Of a DNA stretch of 64,000 nucleotides, positions 4,147-64,000 are shown in pieces. Position 1 is the first letter of the stretch, and every line of letters begins with the position of its first letter. The stretch is from Leucobacter sp. PH1c (lineage in GTDB: Bacteria > Actinomycetota > Actinomycetes > Actinomycetales > Microbacteriaceae): NCBI RefSeq assembly GCF_000633415.1, contig NZ_AYMV01000010.1:1-64000 (forward strand), read 5' to 3'. Position numbers and translations under genes: made by a program. The notes under the pieces were generated by a model. That model ran no database searches and was not told the DNA's origin. It saw only the letters and a program-made list of their open reading frames with translations.

Positions 4147-5070
4147 TCAGGAACGGGTGGCCGGGCCGGGCCGCCGGCGCTCGCGCAGCAGGGTGACGAC
4201 CCCGCCGATCAGGATCACGCCCACCGCCGTCCAGATCGTGCCGTAGGTGAGCCACTCCCCGGCTCCGATGCGCTCGCCGTTGAGCAGCGACGCGACGACG
4301 AGCAGCGCCGGCTCGAGGTAGCTGAGCAGCCCGAAGAGGCTGAGCGTGAGGAGCCGTGAGGCGGTGAGGTAGAGCATGAGCGCGACGCCCGTCCACAGGG
4401 CGAAGAGCGGTGCCGCCCACCAGAGGGCCGGGTTGGCCGCGGTGGCCTCGCCGATCACGATCTCGCGGATGACGAACGTGCCCGCGATGACCGCGACGGC
4501 GATGAACTCCCAGAACATGCCGCCGAGGTGCGCGGTGCCGAGCGCGCGGCGCAGCACGAAGTAGACGGGGTAGCCGAGCGCGACGAGCAGCGTCTCCCAC
4601 GACACCCCGCCCACCCGGATGAGTTCGAAGGCCACTCCGATCGCGGCGATCCCCGCGGCGAGCCACTGCCACCAGACGAGCCGGTCGCCGTAGAGGAACT
4701 TGCCGACTACGACGAGTACGAGCGGCAGGAGGAAGTAGCCGAGGGCGACCTGGAGGCCGCGGCCGTGCATGGGCGCCCAGCTGAACACCCAGAGCTGCGC
4801 CGAGACGAGGAGGCCGCAGGCCAGGATCCCGAGTCCGAGCACGGGGCGCATCCGCACGCGCGCGAGGACGTCGGCGGCGAGGTGCCACTGACGCACAGTG
4901 ATGAGCGCGAGCGCGATCATCGGGATCGTGAGCAGGATCCGGATCCCCCACACGGCCTCCGCGGACGCGGGGGCGAGCATGGGCGTGACGAAGTAGACCC
5001 CGGCGAACGCCACGGACGAGGCGACCGAGGCGAGGACCCCGCGCGAGCTCTGGGTGAGGGAGTGAGCCAC
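4147..5070 (-). CDS. EamA/DMT-superfamily permease, RarD-like
   Basis: A 307-residue membrane protein with about ten hydrophobic helices arranged as two EamA repeats. It resembles RarD in the C-terminal half, where FGLLSYLEPALLVVASLLNG precedes a GTIWTAVGVIL helix. Such carriers export small metabolites or drugs across the inner membrane; the substrate here is unknown. The C-terminus is a short basic cytoplasmic tail (RERRRPGP). It starts 6 bp after the stop of the GNAT gene and is probably co-transcribed with it from that leaderless promoter. An exporter plus acetyltransferase pair could serve detoxification, but that is inference. Confidence 0.85.
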   Translation of the reverse strand: MAHSLTQSSRGVLASVASSVAFAGVYFVTPMLAPASAEAVWGIRILLTIPMIALALITVRQWHLAADVLARVRMRPVLGLGILACGLLVSAQLWVFSWAPMHGRGLQVALGYFLLPLVLVVVGKFLYGDRLVWWQWLAAGIAAIGVAFELIRVGGVSWETLLVALGYPVYFVLRRALGTAHLGGMFWEFIAVAVIAGTFVIREIVIGEATAANPALWWAAPLFALWTGVALMLYLTASRLLTLSLFGLLSYLEPALLVVASLLNGERIGAGEWLTYGTIWTAVGVILIGGVVTLLRERRRPGPATRS

Positions 5071-57891: not shown

Positions 57892-60495
57892 ATGCGATCA
57901 GGCATGTTCCGAGGACTGACGGCGTGCGCGGTGATCCCGCTGCTCGTCCTGCTGGGAGGGCCCGTGGCCCACGCGCAGGAACCCGAGCCCGAGTCTCCCG
58001 TGACGACGCTGACCGATCGGCTCGTCGAGGCCGCGGAGACGGGCGCCTCCGGCGCTGCCGAGCTCGCCGAGGCCGCCGCGCTCCCGGTCGAGGGCGGCGG
58101 CAGCCTGCAGACCGACGAGGCCGAGCGCGTCGTGGCGACCGTGCTCTTCGCCCAGACGCCTGACGAAGCGACGCTCGCGGCTCTCGCCGAGCTCAGCATC
58201 GTGGACGAGGTGCTCACGATCTTCCCTGCGGCGACGATCCGCGTGGACCCCGCAACGCTCTCGGACGTCGAGGCGCTCCCAGGCGTGCTGAGCGCGACGC
58301 CCGCGCTGAAGCCCTTCACCGGCGCGGAGCTGCGCTCGGCGACCGCGGGCGGGGCCCAGACGCTGCGCGCGGAGGCCGACGCGTCGCTCGCCGCCCCGGC
58401 CGAGCGCTGCACCCCCGTGCCGATCGAGGCGGACGGGCCGCTGCGCTCCGCCGAGGCGCGCGAGCTCTTTGGGGTGGACGGCGCCGGTGTCACCGTCGGC
58501 GTGATCTCCGATTCCTTCGGCTCGGTCGCGTCCCCCACGTCCTGGGCTGACGACGTCGCCTCGGGCGCGCTCCCCGGCGCCGACAACCCGTGCGGCTACA
58601 CGACGCCGGTCGAGATCGTCTCCGACGCCGTCGGCGGCTCGGACGAGGGGCGCGCGATGGCGCAGCTCGTGCACGGCGTCGCGCCGGGCGCGCGGATCCT
58701 CTTCGCGGATGCGGGGCGGAACGACCTCGAGATGGCGATGAACATCTCGGCGCTCGTCGAAGCGGGAGCCGACATCATCGTCGACGACATCACCTGGCCG
58801 CAGGAGACCGCGTACCAGCAGGGCTTCATCTCGGGCGCGATCGAGGACGCCAAGGTCCAGGGTGTGGCGTACTTCACCTCGGCCGGCAACTCGACGGGCG
58901 TGGGCTCGGAGGGTGAGTCCGCGGGGCGCCCGATCTCCTCGTGGAGCACTTCCGCCTACCGCCCCACCGATTGCCCGAGCTGGCTCGCGCAGGGCGCGGG
59001 CGACCCGCTCGAGGGCGCGACCGGCATCGACTGCCTCGACTTCGATCCGGATCCGACCGTCGAGACGCCCTACGACACGCTGACGCTCGATGGGGAACCG
59101 GGCGATCCCGACGCCAATCTGCGGGTGCTCGGCTCGATCGCCGAGCCCTTCCTCGGGATCACGACGGCGTACGAGTGGCGTTTCTACCAGGTGGACCCCG
59201 GCGCGAGCGACCCCGCGCTGATCGCCGTCGTGCCCCAGCTGAGCCCGTACTACCCGGGCGCGACCGGCGCGGTGACCGCCGCGGCCGGATCGGAGATCCG
59301 CGCGGTGATGGTGCGCACCCGGCACGACGCTGCGGCCCCGGCGCCCGCCGTGCTCTTCTCGTTCCTGCGCGGGGGCGACTCGATCACCTCGCGGGCCCAC
59401 CTCGGCGACGGCGCGGGCGATCTCGTCGGGCCGACGACCTTCGGGCACGCGGCCGACGGCTCCGCGGTGAGCGTGGCCTCGCTCGACTGGGAGGACCCCA
59501 CGAGCCTGCGCCCCTACAGCTCGCTCGGTCCGGCCACGCTGTACTTCGAGCCCGTGCGCTTCACACCGGACGGGCCCGCGCTCCCCTCAGCTCCGCTCCC
59601 GAGCCCGGTCGTCGTGAACACACCGAACCTCGCATCGGTCGACGGCACGCAGACCACCTTCTTCGCCGGGGAGCCCGGGGACGCGGAGTTCCGCTTCTTC
59701 GGCACCTCGGCCGCCGCGCCGAACGCCGCGGCCGTCGCCGCACTCGGCAAGTCCTACGCCCCGGGAATCTCGGGGGCGGATCTCACCGCGCGCGTGCTGG
59801 AGACGGCACGCGGCACCGCGGAGGGCGGTCCGGTGAACCCGTACACGGCCGCCGGGTTCTCGGACGCGACCGTGTTCGGCGAGGGCATCGTCGACGCCGT
59901 CGGCCTGCTGGGCGCGCTGCCCGCGGCGCCCGCCACCCCGTCGGGGCTGCGCACGACCGAGGTGACCGCCGAGCGCATCGCCGTCGCGTGGGCGCCCGTT
60001 GCCGATGCGACGGCCGTGCGCGCCGAGCTGATCCCCGCCGCGGCGGAGACGCGGGCGGCAGGCGATGCCCCGCTGAGCCTCCCCGCTCCCGCGACCTCGG
60101 CGGTGTTCGAGGGCCTTGCTGCCGATACGGCGTACACCGTGCGCGTCACGGCCGAGAACGCGGTCGGCGCGACGCGCAGTGCGACGCTCGAGGTGCGCAC
60201 GGCCGCCGTCGCTCCGGAGCCGAAGCCCGAGCCGGAGCCGGAGCCGAAGCCCGAGCCGAAGCCCGAACCGGCTCCCGCGCCGAACGCGGCGAAGCCCCCG
60301 CTCGCGCAGACCGGTGGCGCGTCGACGCTGCCCTGGCTGCTCGCGGGTGGCGGGCTGCTCATTCTCGGCGCCGCTGTGGTCGCGGTCGTCGCGGCGCGCT
60401 CCCGCGCGCGGGCTCGGACCGCGGATGCGGTGAGCGGTGCGACCGATGCCGACGAGGCGCGCCCGGGTGACGCGCCGCGCGAGACGGGCGAATAG
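57892..60495 (+). CDS. Wall-anchored S8-like serine peptidase with Glu in place of His
   Basis: An 867-residue surface protein. A signal peptide ends near AHAQ (residue 29) and an inhibitor-like N-terminal region follows. The subtilase fold has Asp207 (VGVISDSFG), oxyanion Asn333 (TSAGNSTG) and Ser606 (GTSAAAP). Where subtilisins have the HGT histidine there is Asp251-Glu252 (SDEGRAMAQLVHGVAPGA), recalling the Ser-Glu-Asp triad of sedolisins. A fibronectin-III-like domain (about 685-770), a Pro-Lys-Glu spacer, the sorting signal LAQTG at 804-808, a helix and an Arg-rich tail complete it. LAXTG signals are handled by class E sortases; none is encoded here. GGGAGAGGAAG precedes the ATG. Confidence 0.88.
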   Translation: MRSGMFRGLTACAVIPLLVLLGGPVAHAQEPEPESPVTTLTDRLVEAAETGASGAAELAEAAALPVEGGGSLQTDEAERVVATVLFAQTPDEATLAALAELSIVDEVLTIFPAATIRVDPATLSDVEALPGVLSATPALKPFTGAELRSATAGGAQTLRAEADASLAAPAERCTPVPIEADGPLRSAEARELFGVDGAGVTVGVISDSFGSVASPTSWADDVASGALPGADNPCGYTTPVEIVSDAVGGSDEGRAMAQLVHGVAPGARILFADAGRNDLEMAMNISALVEAGADIIVDDITWPQETAYQQGFISGAIEDAKVQGVAYFTSAGNSTGVGSEGESAGRPISSWSTSAYRPTDCPSWLAQGAGDPLEGATGIDCLDFDPDPTVETPYDTLTLDGEPGDPDANLRVLGSIAEPFLGITTAYEWRFYQVDPGASDPALIAVVPQLSPYYPGATGAVTAAAGSEIRAVMVRTRHDAAAPAPAVLFSFLRGGDSITSRAHLGDGAGDLVGPTTFGHAADGSAVSVASLDWEDPTSLRPYSSLGPATLYFEPVRFTPDGPALPSAPLPSPVVVNTPNLASVDGTQTTFFAGEPGDAEFRFFGTSAAAPNAAAVAALGKSYAPGISGADLTARVLETARGTAEGGPVNPYTAAGFSDATVFGEGIVDAVGLLGALPAAPATPSGLRTTEVTAERIAVAWAPVADATAVRAELIPAAAETRAAGDAPLSLPAPATSAVFEGLAADTAYTVRVTAENAVGATRSATLEVRTAAVAPEPKPEPEPEPKPEPKPEPAPAPNAAKPPLAQTGGASTLPWLLAGGGLLILGAAVVAVVAARSRARARTADAVSGATDADEARPGDAPRETGE

Positions 60496-60511
60496 TCCGC
60501 TACACTGGAAC

Positions 60512-60603
60512 GGCTCCCTACGTGGCGCTATCTCGAGGAACTCCCCCAGGTCGGAAACGAAGCAAGGGTACTCGGGCTCTAGCGGGTACGTAGGGAGTCT
60601 TTT
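60512..60603 (+). ncRNA. ffs: Signal recognition particle RNA, small bacterial type
   Basis: The conserved domain IV core is seen as CCCAGGTCGGAAACGAAGCA followed by AGGGTA. The ends GGCTCCCTACGT and ACGTAGGGAGTC pair to close one long hairpin, followed by a T-run that serves as terminator. A likely -10, TACACT, is at 60501-60506, placing the 5' end near 60512. The RNA binds Ffh in targeting membrane proteins. Confidence 0.92.
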
Positions 60604-60624
60604 CGTTTCCCGGCGCTCCGCGGA

Positions 60625-61293
60625 TCAGGCGGGGGAGCCGGGCTCCTCGTGGCGCGGCCACGCTTCGGCGAGCTTCGTGAGGAGTCGCGCGAGTTCGGTG
60701 CGCTCCGCGGGGTCGAGCGCTGCGAGCGCCGCGCTGGCCTCGGCCCGCTGGCGGCCGCGGAAGCCGTGCACCGCGTCCTCGCCCGCGGGTGCGATCCGCA
60801 CGCGGGTGCGGCGGGCGTCCTCCGGGTCGGCCTCCCGGGCCGCGAAGCCGCGCTCGACGGCCTGCTGCACGAGGCGCGAGGCGCGGGGCTGGTCGACGCC
60901 GATCTCGCCCGCGATCTCGTTGACGGTGAGCGGTTCCGTGGCGTGCGCCAGTGTGCTGAGCAGGCGGAGCAGGGCGGGGCCGCCGAACCCTCCGCGTGGG
61001 CCGCGTGCTCCCGGGCCCCGCGCGCCGTGCTCGCCGCCCGCGCGGCCGGCCCAGGGGTCGCCATGGCCCTCGTCGTCGCCACGGCCCTCGGGGCCGCCCG
61101 CGAGTCGGGGGTCGGTCCCGTGCGACCCGGGGAAGCCCCCGGGGCCGTGCGCGCCCGGGAAGCCGCCCGGGCCGCCGTGGCGTCGTCCGCCGCGTGCGCC
61201 GCGGAGCCGGGCGAGCGCAGCGATGACCGCGTCGGTCTCCGCGATGGCTGAGGGATCGTGCTCGGGAGCCGGATCGTGCGCGAGGGGGTCCAT
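60625..61293 (-). CDS. MarR-family regulator with Gly/His-rich N-terminal insertion
   Basis: A 222-residue regulator. The C-terminal half is a standard MarR winged helix: LTVNEIAGEIGVDQPRASRL for the DNA-reading helices and EADPEDARRTRVRIAP for the wing. Residues 35-110 are Gly/His/Pro/Arg-rich, with repeats such as GGFPGAHG and GGFPGSHG, and are probably disordered and perhaps metal-binding. The ATG is leaderless, with TAAAAT seven bases upstream. It is divergent from a second MarR-like, His-rich gene over an AT-rich region with TGACAT repeats, so autoregulation is likely. The ligand is unknown. Confidence 0.85.
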   Translation of the reverse strand: MDPLAHDPAPEHDPSAIAETDAVIAALARLRGARGGRRHGGPGGFPGAHGPGGFPGSHGTDPRLAGGPEGRGDDEGHGDPWAGRAGGEHGARGPGARGPRGGFGGPALLRLLSTLAHATEPLTVNEIAGEIGVDQPRASRLVQQAVERGFAAREADPEDARRTRVRIAPAGEDAVHGFRGRQRAEASAALAALDPAERTELARLLTKLAEAWPRHEEPGSPA

Positions 61294-61300
61294 GCTGAGA

Positions 61301-61370
61301 ATTTTACATGCACCTTGACATGTATGTATTTCCATGTCACCATACATATACATGCACAGTGACATATATC
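61301..61370. promoter_or_regulatory. AT-rich divergent control region with MarR-type sites
   Basis: TGACATG at 61316-61322 and CATGTCA at 61333-61339 form an inverted repeat with a 10-bp spacer. A 16-bp direct repeat, ACATGCACnnTGACAT, occurs at 61306-61321 and 61350-61365. TTGACA at 61315 could be a plus-strand -35. The region is far richer in A and T than its surroundings. Confidence 0.65.
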
Positions 61371-61405
61371 GCGGGCAGGGGCCCGCACGAAAGGACATGC
61401 AGATC

Positions 61406-62293
61406 ATGCAGAACCCAGACTTCATTCATCCCGCGGACCCCGCTCAGCCGACCGCGTCCAACGACCCCACCGTTCCCGAAGCCCTCACGGGCGCCGACGC
61501 CGACGCGCCGCGCTCCCTCGCCTCCTGGCTCCGCATCGCCGAAGCGATGATCGCTCGGGAGCGGGCCACGGCGCTCGCCGCCGCGGGCGTCACCCGAGGC
61601 GAGTTCCGGATCCTGAGCGGGCTCGCCGCCGACGAGCTTCCGGAGCGCCTGCGCGAGCGGCTCGCCCGCGGGGGCAAACGGCTCTTCGAACTCGAGGCGC
61701 GCGGCTGGATCGCCGCCACCGCCGACGGGTGGGAGCTCACCGAGGCCGGCGAGACCGTGCGCGAGCGCGCCGCTGCGGCGCTCAGCGCGGCGGATCTCCG
61801 CATCTCGGAGAGCGTCCCCGCCGCTGAGCTCGAGGCGGCGCGCGCCACGCTCGAGTCGCTCGCCCGGGAGCTCGGGTGGACCGAGGGGCTCCGCCTTCCG
61901 CGTCGCGGCCCGCGCGGGCACCGCGGCCACGGAGGCCCGCGCGGCCACCGCGGTCACCGAGGTCACCGCGGTCACGGCCACCGTGAGCACATGCACCCCG
62001 GGCACGACCACGGTGACCACGACCATGGTGGTCACTGCCACCGTGGGCATATGCACCCCGGTCACGACTTCCGCGGTCACGAGCATCGCGGTCACGACCA
62101 CCGCGGCCGTGGCGCCGGGTCCGAGTGCCGGCACCCGCAGGCGGATCACCACCCGCACTCCGGGCACTTCCCGCAGCCCCACACCGGGCACTTCCCGCAC
62201 CCGCACGACGGGCACCGCCCGCACCCGCGGGGCTTCGAACGCGGCTTCACCGCGGGCTTCGCTGCGGCACGACGCGCGGAGGATCGGGGCTGA
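61406..62293 (+). CDS. MarR-like protein with long His-rich C-terminal tail
   Basis: A 295-residue protein. Residues 35-165 resemble a MarR-type winged helix (RGEFRILSGLAADELPERL, LFELEARGWIAATADGWELTEAG), but the recognition-helix part is reduced. From about residue 170 the sequence is His/Gly/Arg-rich: repeats of RGH/HRG, then HPGHD/HDHG, then HSGHFPQPH and GHFPHPHDGH. Such tails bind Ni, Zn, Cu or Co in other proteins. A single Cys lies in HCHRGH. The ATG at 61406 is preceded by AAAGGA; an in-frame ATG at 61397 is too close to it. It is divergent from the MarR gene at 61293. Function as a metal sensor or store is inference. Confidence 0.75.
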   Translation: MQNPDFIHPADPAQPTASNDPTVPEALTGADADAPRSLASWLRIAEAMIARERATALAAAGVTRGEFRILSGLAADELPERLRERLARGGKRLFELEARGWIAATADGWELTEAGETVRERAAAALSAADLRISESVPAAELEAARATLESLARELGWTEGLRLPRRGPRGHRGHGGPRGHRGHRGHRGHGHREHMHPGHDHGDHDHGGHCHRGHMHPGHDFRGHEHRGHDHRGRGAGSECRHPQADHHPHSGHFPQPHTGHFPHPHDGHRPHPRGFERGFTAGFAAARRAEDRG

Positions 62294-62431
62294 TCCCGAT
62301 CCCGAGCCGGCCGTGAGGGATCTTCAGCGCGGCCCGGCGACGGCGGCCCGGTTCCGGAGTTTCTTCGGACCGGGCCGCCGTTCGCGCGCCCCCGCTGAGT
62401 CGCCCATGGGCGGCCGCATAGACTGAAGGCT

Positions 62432-64000
62432 GTGGCAGCGAGCATCTACCTGACGTCGGCTGAGGGCCGGACCGGCAAGAGCGCCGTCGCGCTGGGAGTG
62501 CTCGATGCGCTCCGCGCCGACGCTCCGCGAGTGGGCGTGTTCCGCCCCCTGATCCGCTCGGCGAGCGAGCCCGACCGCGTGCTCGAGATGCTCCTGCGCC
62601 GCGCGACCGCAGACGTGCCCTACGCCGACTGCGTGGGCGTCACCTACGACGACGCGCACGCCGATCCCGACGCCGCCATGGCCCGGATCGTCGCCGCCTA
62701 CCAGGCCCTCCGCGCCCGCTGCGACGCGATCGTGGTGGTCGGCTCCGACTTCACGGACGTCGCGGCGCCCACCGAGCTCGCGTTCAACGCCCGCATCGCG
62801 GCGAATCTCGACACCCCCGTGCTCCTCGTGCTCGGCGGCCGCTCCTCCGACGAGGCCGAATATCTCGGCCAGCAGGTTGCCCGCACCCCCGCCGAGATCG
62901 CGCAGCTCGCAGAGCTCGGGCTCGTCGAGCTCCAGGCCGAGCACGCCACGGTGCTCGCGGCACTCGTGAACCGCGCCGATCCCGAGCGGCTCGCGGAGAT
63001 TGATCGCGCCGTCACCGGCGTGCTGCCCGCGGGAGTGCCCGTCTGGTCGGTTCCGGAGGAGCTGCTGCTCGTCGCGCCGCCCGTATCCGAGGTGCTCGCG
63101 GCCGTCGACGGCACGCTCGAGCGCGGATCGGGCGAGCTCCTCGCCCGCGAGGTCCGCGACGTGGTCGTCGCCGGGATGTCGATGGAGAACGTGCTCCCGC
63201 GGCTGCTCGAGGGATCCGTCGTCGTGATCGCCGCCGACCGCTCCGAGACGCTCCTCGCGGTGACGATGGCCCACGAGGCGCCGACCTTCCCCACGATCGC
63301 CGCCGTTGTGCTGAACGGTGAATTCGCCCTCCCCGCGGACGTCTCGCGGCTGCTCGACGGGATCGACTCGACGCTCCCGATCATCCGCACCCACTCGGGC
63401 ACCTTCGACACGGTGCGCCGCATCTCGTCCGCGCGCGGGCTCCTCACCGAGGAGTCGCCGGCCAAATTCGATACGGCGCTCGCGCTCTTCGCGCAGCACG
63501 TCGACACGGCCACCCTCCGTGAGCGGCTGCGCCTCCACCGGGGCGGCGTGCGCACGCCCGTGATGTTCGCCTACGAATTGTTCGACCGCGCGGCCGCGGC
63601 CGACTCGCACATCGTCCTCCCCGAGGGCCACGACGACCGGATCCTCCGCGCCGCGAGCACGCTGCTCGCCCGCGGAACCGCGCGCCTCACGCTCCTCGGC
63701 GACGCCGCCGCGATCCGCAAGCGCGGTGGCGAGCTCGGCCTCGCGCTCGACGCCGCCCAGATCATCGACCCGCTGCGCGCCCCCGAGCGCGAGCGCTTCG
63801 CCGCGGAGTACGCGCGCCTCCGCGCGCACAAGGGCGTCACACCCGAGCAGGCGTGGGACATCATGGCCGACGGCAGCTACTTCGGCACCATGATGGTGCA
63901 GCTCGGCCTCGCCGACGGGATGGTGTCGGGGGCCGCGAACACGACGGCGCACACGATCCGGCCGAGCCTCGAGTTCATCAAGACGAAGCCGGGCGTCTCG
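62432..64000 (+). CDS. pta: Phosphate acetyltransferase, 3' end beyond the window
   Basis: The first 523 residues of a multidomain Pta, which interconverts acetyl-CoA and acetyl phosphate. The N-terminal BioD-like P-loop domain starts IYLTSAEGRTGKSAVALG. A DRTGG-type domain follows (VVVIAADRSETLL). The catalytic PTA_PTB domain begins at about 383 (RTPVMFAYELFDRA, then HIVLPEGHDDRILRAAS) and includes DGMVSGAANTTAHTIRPSL at the edge. The GTG start has TAGACT seven bases upstream with GAAGG in between. ackA would be expected next. Acetate from nagA could feed this pathway. Confidence 0.96.
   Translation, partial: MAASIYLTSAEGRTGKSAVALGVLDALRADAPRVGVFRPLIRSASEPDRVLEMLLRRATADVPYADCVGVTYDDAHADPDAAMARIVAAYQALRARCDAIVVVGSDFTDVAAPTELAFNARIAANLDTPVLLVLGGRSSDEAEYLGQQVARTPAEIAQLAELGLVELQAEHATVLAALVNRADPERLAEIDRAVTGVLPAGVPVWSVPEELLLVAPPVSEVLAAVDGTLERGSGELLAREVRDVVVAGMSMENVLPRLLEGSVVVIAADRSETLLAVTMAHEAPTFPTIAAVVLNGEFALPADVSRLLDGIDSTLPIIRTHSGTFDTVRRISSARGLLTEESPAKFDTALALFAQHVDTATLRERLRLHRGGVRTPVMFAYELFDRAAAADSHIVLPEGHDDRILRAASTLLARGTARLTLLGDAAAIRKRGGELGLALDAAQIIDPLRAPERERFAAEYARLRAHKGVTPEQAWDIMADGSYFGTMMVQLGLADGMVSGAANTTAHTIRPSLEFIKTKPGVS

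Follow-up and report, generated by a model that had tools for sequence, protein, structure and literature searches.

The divergent arrangement of a repressor gene and its neighbor is common in the MarR family. Known members of this family, and systems built around them, provide the closest points of comparison for the gene pair considered here. The zinc-sensing MarR protein AdcR binds Zn via core residues such as H108, H112 and E107, and oxidation-sensing Cys residues are widespread in MarR proteins (both according to passages of PMC6224198). ArmR acts as an antirepressor of the MarR protein MexR (a passage of PMC3290565). Outside the family, SlyD binds Ni and Zn through a disordered tail rich in His and Cys (a passage of PMC7055735). 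Among the matches listed from a search of open-licence full texts, a scope that leaves most subscription journals outside, no description of the pair below was found.

The pair is located in a window of 64,000 nucleotides from Leucobacter sp. PH1c (NZ_AYMV01000010.1, positions 1 to 64,000), to which the coordinates refer. Bacteria of the Leucobacter and Microbacterium kind are soil bacteria. A gene for a MarR-family repressor (marR) and a gene for a MarR-derived protein (referred to as the partner) are transcribed back to back from a 112-bp intergenic region, in a segment (60500-62499) with a GC content of 71-78%. The proteins and their low-complexity segments are:

60625..61293, minus strand: MarR-family repressor (Pfam MarR_2), 222 aa, with a Gly/His-rich insert in the helix1-helix2 loop
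~60979..61185 (approximate), minus strand: Gly/His-rich insert of MarR, residues ~37-105, separating helix 1 from the winged helix; low pLDDT over most of its length
61406..62293, plus strand: MarR-derived partner, 295 aa, with a reduced winged helix, dimer-type helices, a Cys-bearing His-rich tail and a C-terminal FERGFTAGF helix
61892..62290, plus strand: His-rich tail of the partner (HMM segmentation), 133 residues (33 His, 2 Cys) up to and including the C-terminal helix that carries the motif

Both open reading frames were confirmed. An initial annotation had described a divergent MarR-like pair whose members face each other; the divergent orientation holds, while the second part does not, since the genes are not convergent. 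The Gly/His-rich segments that it noted in both proteins are there, and they recur in relatives along with the layout. This recurrence, together with a His content of 13.9% in the partner tails versus 1.8% in the cores, indicates that the pair is more than a chance occurrence. On the side of the marR 3' end, the locus is directly adjoined by a gene for the bacterial small SRP RNA (60509-60605; Rfam RF00169, 62.6 bits). It is preceded by a subtilase (57892-60495; Peptidase_S8, 1.5e-13), which also contains an Fn3 domain, a repetitive stretch of E/P/K and, near the C-terminus, an LAQTGG-like sequence that we take to be a sorting signal.

The marR product, which starts at the ATG at 61293-61291 (minus strand), matches Pfam MarR_2 with an E-value of 9.2e-11 (42.2 bits against a cut-off of 27). 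Its AlphaFold2 model (mean pLDDT 77.0) displays helices at residues 14-36, 106-117, 124-131 and 135-147, followed by a wing at 151-167. The recognition helix (135-147, 13 residues) and the 17-residue wing are thus complete, with a pLDDT mostly >90. In 39 aligned sequences the recognition helix, IGVDQPRASRLV, is invariant or 90% conserved, and no His or Cys is found among the invariant or 90% columns of these orthologues. Ahead of this helix the orthologues have a median of 7 His and 19 Gly, and Cys in 0 of 66; start and insert counts refer to 66 loci because 7 of 73, where the script did not identify a marR start, were left out.

For the partner, the most likely start as read from the sequence is the ATG at 61406, which yields 295 aa and has AAAGGA at a distance of 10 nt on its upstream side; another in-frame ATG, at 61397, is separated from AAAGGA by a single nucleotide. 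Most analyses of the partner used 61409-62293, i.e., the protein without Met, so that the model residue numbers are the protein numbers minus one. The window partner does not match any Pfam or NCBIfam family above cut-off, but a profile comparison links it to solved MarR proteins (best, Rv2887 at 2.6e-4), and each of the 15 Foldseek matches with an E-value no higher than 0.001 is a MarR-type protein. These data support descent of the partner from a MarR. In its AlphaFold2 model (mean pLDDT 69.2, core >90) the recognition helix comprises 8 residues (model residues 90-97) versus 13 in MarR, and the wing 10 versus 17, in line with the reduced recognition helix proposed in the initial annotation. 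The partner is therefore probably DNA-binding-defective and no longer a DNA reader. Among 40 partners, MarR_2 matches one (best E 0.089). HTH_67 weakly matches 22 of the 40 partner relatives (5.4e-7 for the strongest match, which may exceed the HTH_67 cut-off), as does HVO_A0261_N with 33 of 40 (best 4.2e-6); because such matches are found in relatives with a winged helix, DNA binding by the partner may persist.

A search for the pair in other actinobacteria revealed that it is conserved in Leucobacter, Microbacterium and a second family (f7). In the genus Leucobacter (54 genomes) both genes are found in 20 genomes, only marR in one, only the partner in one and neither in 32, where MarR was counted at E 1e-41 or better (21 genomes) and the partner at 1e-13 or better (21 genomes); weaker matches, of MarR in 3 genomes (1e-16 to 1e-18) and of the partner in 5 (1e-4 to 1e-7), were not counted. 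This distribution supports the earlier suggestion of a dedicated two-protein pair. The co-occurrence has a Fisher p of 1.3e-12, a value that ignores relatedness of the 54 genomes. In 19 of the 20 genomes with both genes these are divergent neighbors on the same contig; in the other one, G057, they are found on two contigs of an assembly that is 74% complete. In the genome with marR only (G042), the divergent gene encodes a 98-residue His-rich protein with AYERGFEAGF near its end and, by eye, no visible MarR core, and the genome with the partner only (G055) is an assembly in 410 contigs. In a first set of 40 relatives the partner was found in 11 genomes, all members of the genus and including the own one; next to the partner in the remaining ten, an orthologous MarR with a Gly/His-rich loop is encoded divergently.

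A divergent partner ORF (E 1e-3 or better) was identified at 74 of the 80 named contigs fetched by MarR (the best 80 of 232 relatives), mostly from Leucobacter and Microbacterium. The six others are at a contig edge (L140, L148), hold a remnant (L141), lack the partner (L157, L163) or have an ORF without a MarR core (L197). At L157 the partner is lost and MarR retains its Gly/His-rich loop; only L163 has lost both. In larger samples MarR was found in 40 of 349 family genomes (E 1e-25) and in 38 of 396 order genomes (E 1e-22), and these include 14 genomes of family f7 and one of f16. Two Microbacterium loci, L141 (reverse complement 4400-4620) and L150 (reverse complement 4430-4500), display a deletion that seems to remove the operator and to bring remnants of MarR and partner together.

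The shared promoter region contains a direct repeat, TACATGCACCTTGACATGTAT / TACATGCACAGTGACATATAT, and three sites that fit the pattern TTTACATGNNNNTTGACATG with 0, 3 and 3 mismatches:

61301..61306, minus strand: putative marR -10 element, TAAAAT
61303..61322, plus strand: operator site A, TTTACATGCACCTTGACATG, overlapping the putative marR -10 and the putative partner -35, TTGACA
61333..61352, minus strand: operator site B, covering the putative partner -10 and differing from the pattern at 3 positions
61347..61366, plus strand: operator site C, 3 mismatches, a direct repeat of site A

In 57 of 66 loci, 8-9 nt separate site A from the marR start codon, and the Shine-Dalgarno-like score ahead of marR is at most 3 of 5 in all 66, which suggests that marR is probably leaderless, with a -10 element overlapping site A. 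The assignments of TTGACA in site A as the partner -35 and of a partner -10 in site B are putative and read from spacing. The array is conserved across Leucobacter and Microbacterium and is also seen in the f7 loci looked at; from the start of site A to that of CATGTCA in site B the distance is 30 or 31 nt in 71 of 73 aligned loci, and some Microbacterium have, by eye, four operator copies. Loci without a partner keep one recognizable site, with 3 mismatches at L157 and 2 at L163.

Sites that deviate from the pattern at no more than one position are found in 20 of the 54 genus genomes, all of them MarR bearers, and always at the locus; the only one of the 21 MarR bearers without such a site is G057. 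A single such site, adjacent to MarR, was found in each of 26 out of 27 other genomes that carry MarR. This search misses weaker sites (such as B and C with their 3 mismatches), which were assessed in the own genome, where two further 3-mismatch sites were found, one of them in a likely promoter region. The two-mismatch sites away from the locus in the 54 genus genomes number 14 versus 9 for a reversed-pattern control, i.e., not far above it. Because operator matches with at most one mismatch are found only at the locus, the module seems to regulate mainly itself; since the genome gave no further strong operator, the partner is the leading candidate for the output. The 3-mismatch operator-like site in the likely promoter region (L072, G000:C56:17824-17843; crude gene calling) may be due to chance; the gene at this site looks, by eye, like a proline-racemase type.

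The reading that we prefer, and to which we give an even chance, is that of a self-repressed repressor and an effector that is probably defective in DNA binding. The His/Cys tail of this effector would bind metal or sense thiol stress, and repression may be relieved as a result. A MarR dimer would bind the three operator copies through its near-invariant recognition helix, as suggested by the strong sequence conservation. At site A it would block the putative -10 of leaderless marR as well as the putative -35 of the partner gene, at site B the partner -10, while site C would lie near the partner transcript start. The restriction of near-exact sites to the locus supports the partner as the main regulated product. 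Also supported is a partner that is MarR-descended and probably not a DNA reader, with a winged helix that is shortened and in several lineages deleted, and that has retained the C-terminal ERGF motif and a His-rich segment, in most cases with one Cys. The tail would then bind a transition metal, or its Cys would sense thiol-reactive stress, and the loaded partner would act on MarR, which carries a similar Gly/His-rich loop, via the retained dimer-type helices or the C-terminal helix. Lifting of repression would yield more partner, and metal or stress would be buffered until the signal fades.

The extent to which the partner has abandoned its DNA-binding head is seen from a comparison of 71 measurable partners (70 named loci and the window), segmented into core and tail by an HMM. 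Ten of the 80 named loci were left out of this measurement: L140 and L148 (contig edge), L168 and L207 (partner cut by a contig end), L141 and L150 (deletions), L157 and L163 (no partner), L196 (start not found by the rule) and L208 (reading frame interrupted). The L196 partner has ATT at the expected start, and this and the interrupted L208 frame may reflect sequencing error or decay. The winged helix is missing in 8 of the 71, i.e., in one clade around M. oleivorans (six loci), in L159 and in L197, a His-rich ORF without any MarR core. It is also missing, by eye, in the f7, g64 and L126 loci (14 loci looked at); the f7 loci have the same operator, and the partner is without a winged helix in the five looked at. 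In L114, L121, L125 and L107 a His-rich stretch is seen by eye within the winged-helix region, and in L121 and L125 this stretch includes a FERGYERGF motif. A weakly resolved MarR-core tree (76 rows, 108 columns; 12 loci excluded for want of a regex core) requires at least five changes among three winged-helix states (kept, lost, insert) and leaves the number of independent losses unfixed. An RMF-like match of one core-less partner (E 0.098) was dismissed, the family not being among the 25 listed for 40 other partners.

These losses are also what would be expected if the partner were a metal buffer alone, a metallothionein- or SlyD-tail-like store that is MarR-regulated and never touches MarR. 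This main rival, which we regard as rather unlikely, draws on the metal-binding SlyD tails mentioned above and on the core-less partners, which keep only the His-rich part and the C-terminal motif. These two, L197 and G042, are also without dimer-type helices, so that heterodimerization cannot be essential everywhere. Most partners without a winged helix, however, keep the dimer-type helices, and MarR itself has a similar His-rich loop. Nor was a linked metal enzyme found in the 54 genus genomes: urease alpha is found in one of these (G011), a genome without the pair, and a NicO Ni/Co transporter in none, and a role in nickel supply to urease is accordingly not supported. The near absence of urease and NicO from the genus also weighs against the preferred reading.

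The tails are present in close orthologues, as would be anticipated from the initial annotation, the interpretation of which is supported in part, as regards a dedicated pair, persistent tails and a reduced recognition helix. In the window partner the pLDDT is <50 over most of model residues 173-272, while the ERGF-type motif is found within a predicted helix (275-293, pLDDT about 73). Together the 71 tails comprise 7713 residues with 1075 His and 69 Cys, and the 71 cores 9504 residues with 169 His and one Cys in all. A codon-position composition model predicts 608.7 His and 290.7 Cys in the tails, such that His is enriched over base composition and the tail Cys is not, being only very evenly spread: it is present in 62 of the 71 tails, with exactly one in 56 and none in 9. 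The case for the Cys thus rests on this narrow one-per-tail distribution and on the C-x-H context, found in 34 of 71 tails versus a shuffle mean of 9.4 (maximum 21 in 1000), both of which are inflated by relatedness. With one representative for each 60% cluster, Cys is present in 29 of 36 tails, exactly one in 24, and C-x-H in 16 of 36 versus a shuffle mean of 4.8 (maximum 11 in 1000). An ERGF-type motif is found within the last 45 residues of 66 of the 71 tails, even as the tail letters drift fast between partners. Judged from such patterns the tail does not appear to be random filler, and neutral repeat growth is disfavored by the one-Cys pattern, the C-x-H excess and the ERGF end. The partners without an ERGF end are L161, L162, L204 and L205, which end in HIHIHTH, and L160, which ends in another sequence; the L106 and L110 partners have VHVHVH near the end. 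Such an alternating His strand looks like a metal site.

The single tail Cys, set against one Cys across all 71 cores, also allows a redox or electrophile switch in which this Cys is the sensor, of a type widespread in MarR proteins as noted above, and His only tunes Cys reactivity or solubility. The nine tails that have no Cys and the HIHIHTH ends of four tails without ERGF, with their resemblance to metal binding, make this alternative unlikely.

The genes around the pair provide a further view of what MarR may control. Searches with tblastn seeds at the 80 named loci gave matches for pta at 7, dcd at 42, an MFS gene at 55, BCCT at 22, a CDF-like gene at 19, a CbiX-like gene at 10 and a sulfite reductase-like gene at 8, where the names are readings of the sequences rather than database matches. 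All CDF-like and MFS matches are on the strand opposite to MarR. A metal or drug exporter under MarR was rejected, as no operator is found there and the neighbors differ between lineages. The CbiX-like gene beside the L157 MarR is taken as synteny left after loss of the partner. One further alternative is that MarR autoregulates in the usual manner in response to drugs or phenolics, that the paralogue has kept its DNA binding, and that the tails are neutral low-complexity growth in GC-rich DNA. This alternative could appeal to the base composition and fast-drifting tail letters, to the weak winged-helix Pfam matches in partner relatives, and to Rv2887, the nearest solved partner relative, structures of which have also been determined in the presence of salicylic acid and p-aminosalicylic acid. 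It is very unlikely given that the best operator is found only at the locus with no neighbor under it, that one Cys per tail, an excess of C-x-H and the ERGF end persist inside the drifting tails, and that the winged helix is lost while the tail is kept.

Within the preferred reading of a self-repressed repressor and its effector, we tentatively put forward a closed loop as a possible arrangement, where the metal-loaded pseudo-repressor titrates the true repressor, the twin is the only substantial target and no transporter or enzyme belongs to the regulon. If true, such a loop would be a new regulatory architecture, in which the twin has given up the part that reads DNA and carries instead a His/Cys tail for metal loading. 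The pair is a conserved case of a repressor-derived protein that loses its DNA-binding head in several lineages while a metal-type tail is kept, and of a regulator whose detectable regulon is its own locus only. It represents a two-gene module of Leucobacter, Microbacterium and a second family, and would illustrate how low-complexity His/Cys segments come to be used in regulation.

Both proteins share the fold of MarR repressors, of which Rv2887 (PDB 5hsm/5hso) is nearest to the partner, and the operator is palindrome-like; the partner differs in its shortened or absent winged helix and in its His/Cys tail. Tail-less MarR-like proteins of the 'RPIGFWLKLVDRLIDEQF' type (e.g., L085 and L098) share the helix 1 and helix 5/6 signature with the partner, but are mostly about 140-150 aa and have no His tail. 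Relatives of this tail-less type are seen in many genomes of the family, and the group is possibly the source from which the partner arose. Like AdcR/ZitR, the pair combines a MarR fold with a suspected metal link, but the MarR described here has no conserved His/Cys column (39 sequences, set against the ligands described for AdcR), and no metal-uptake genes are seen under its operator (sites with at most one mismatch). With SlyD and UreE the partner shares a disordered His- (and Cys-) rich C-terminal extension, which is here attached to a degenerate MarR rather than to a prolyl isomerase or a urease accessory protein. The proposed logic resembles that of ArmR and MexR, by analogy a small protein that would lift a MarR repressor; in contrast to ArmR, the partner is itself MarR-derived, and it is encoded divergently from, and apparently repressed by, its putative target.
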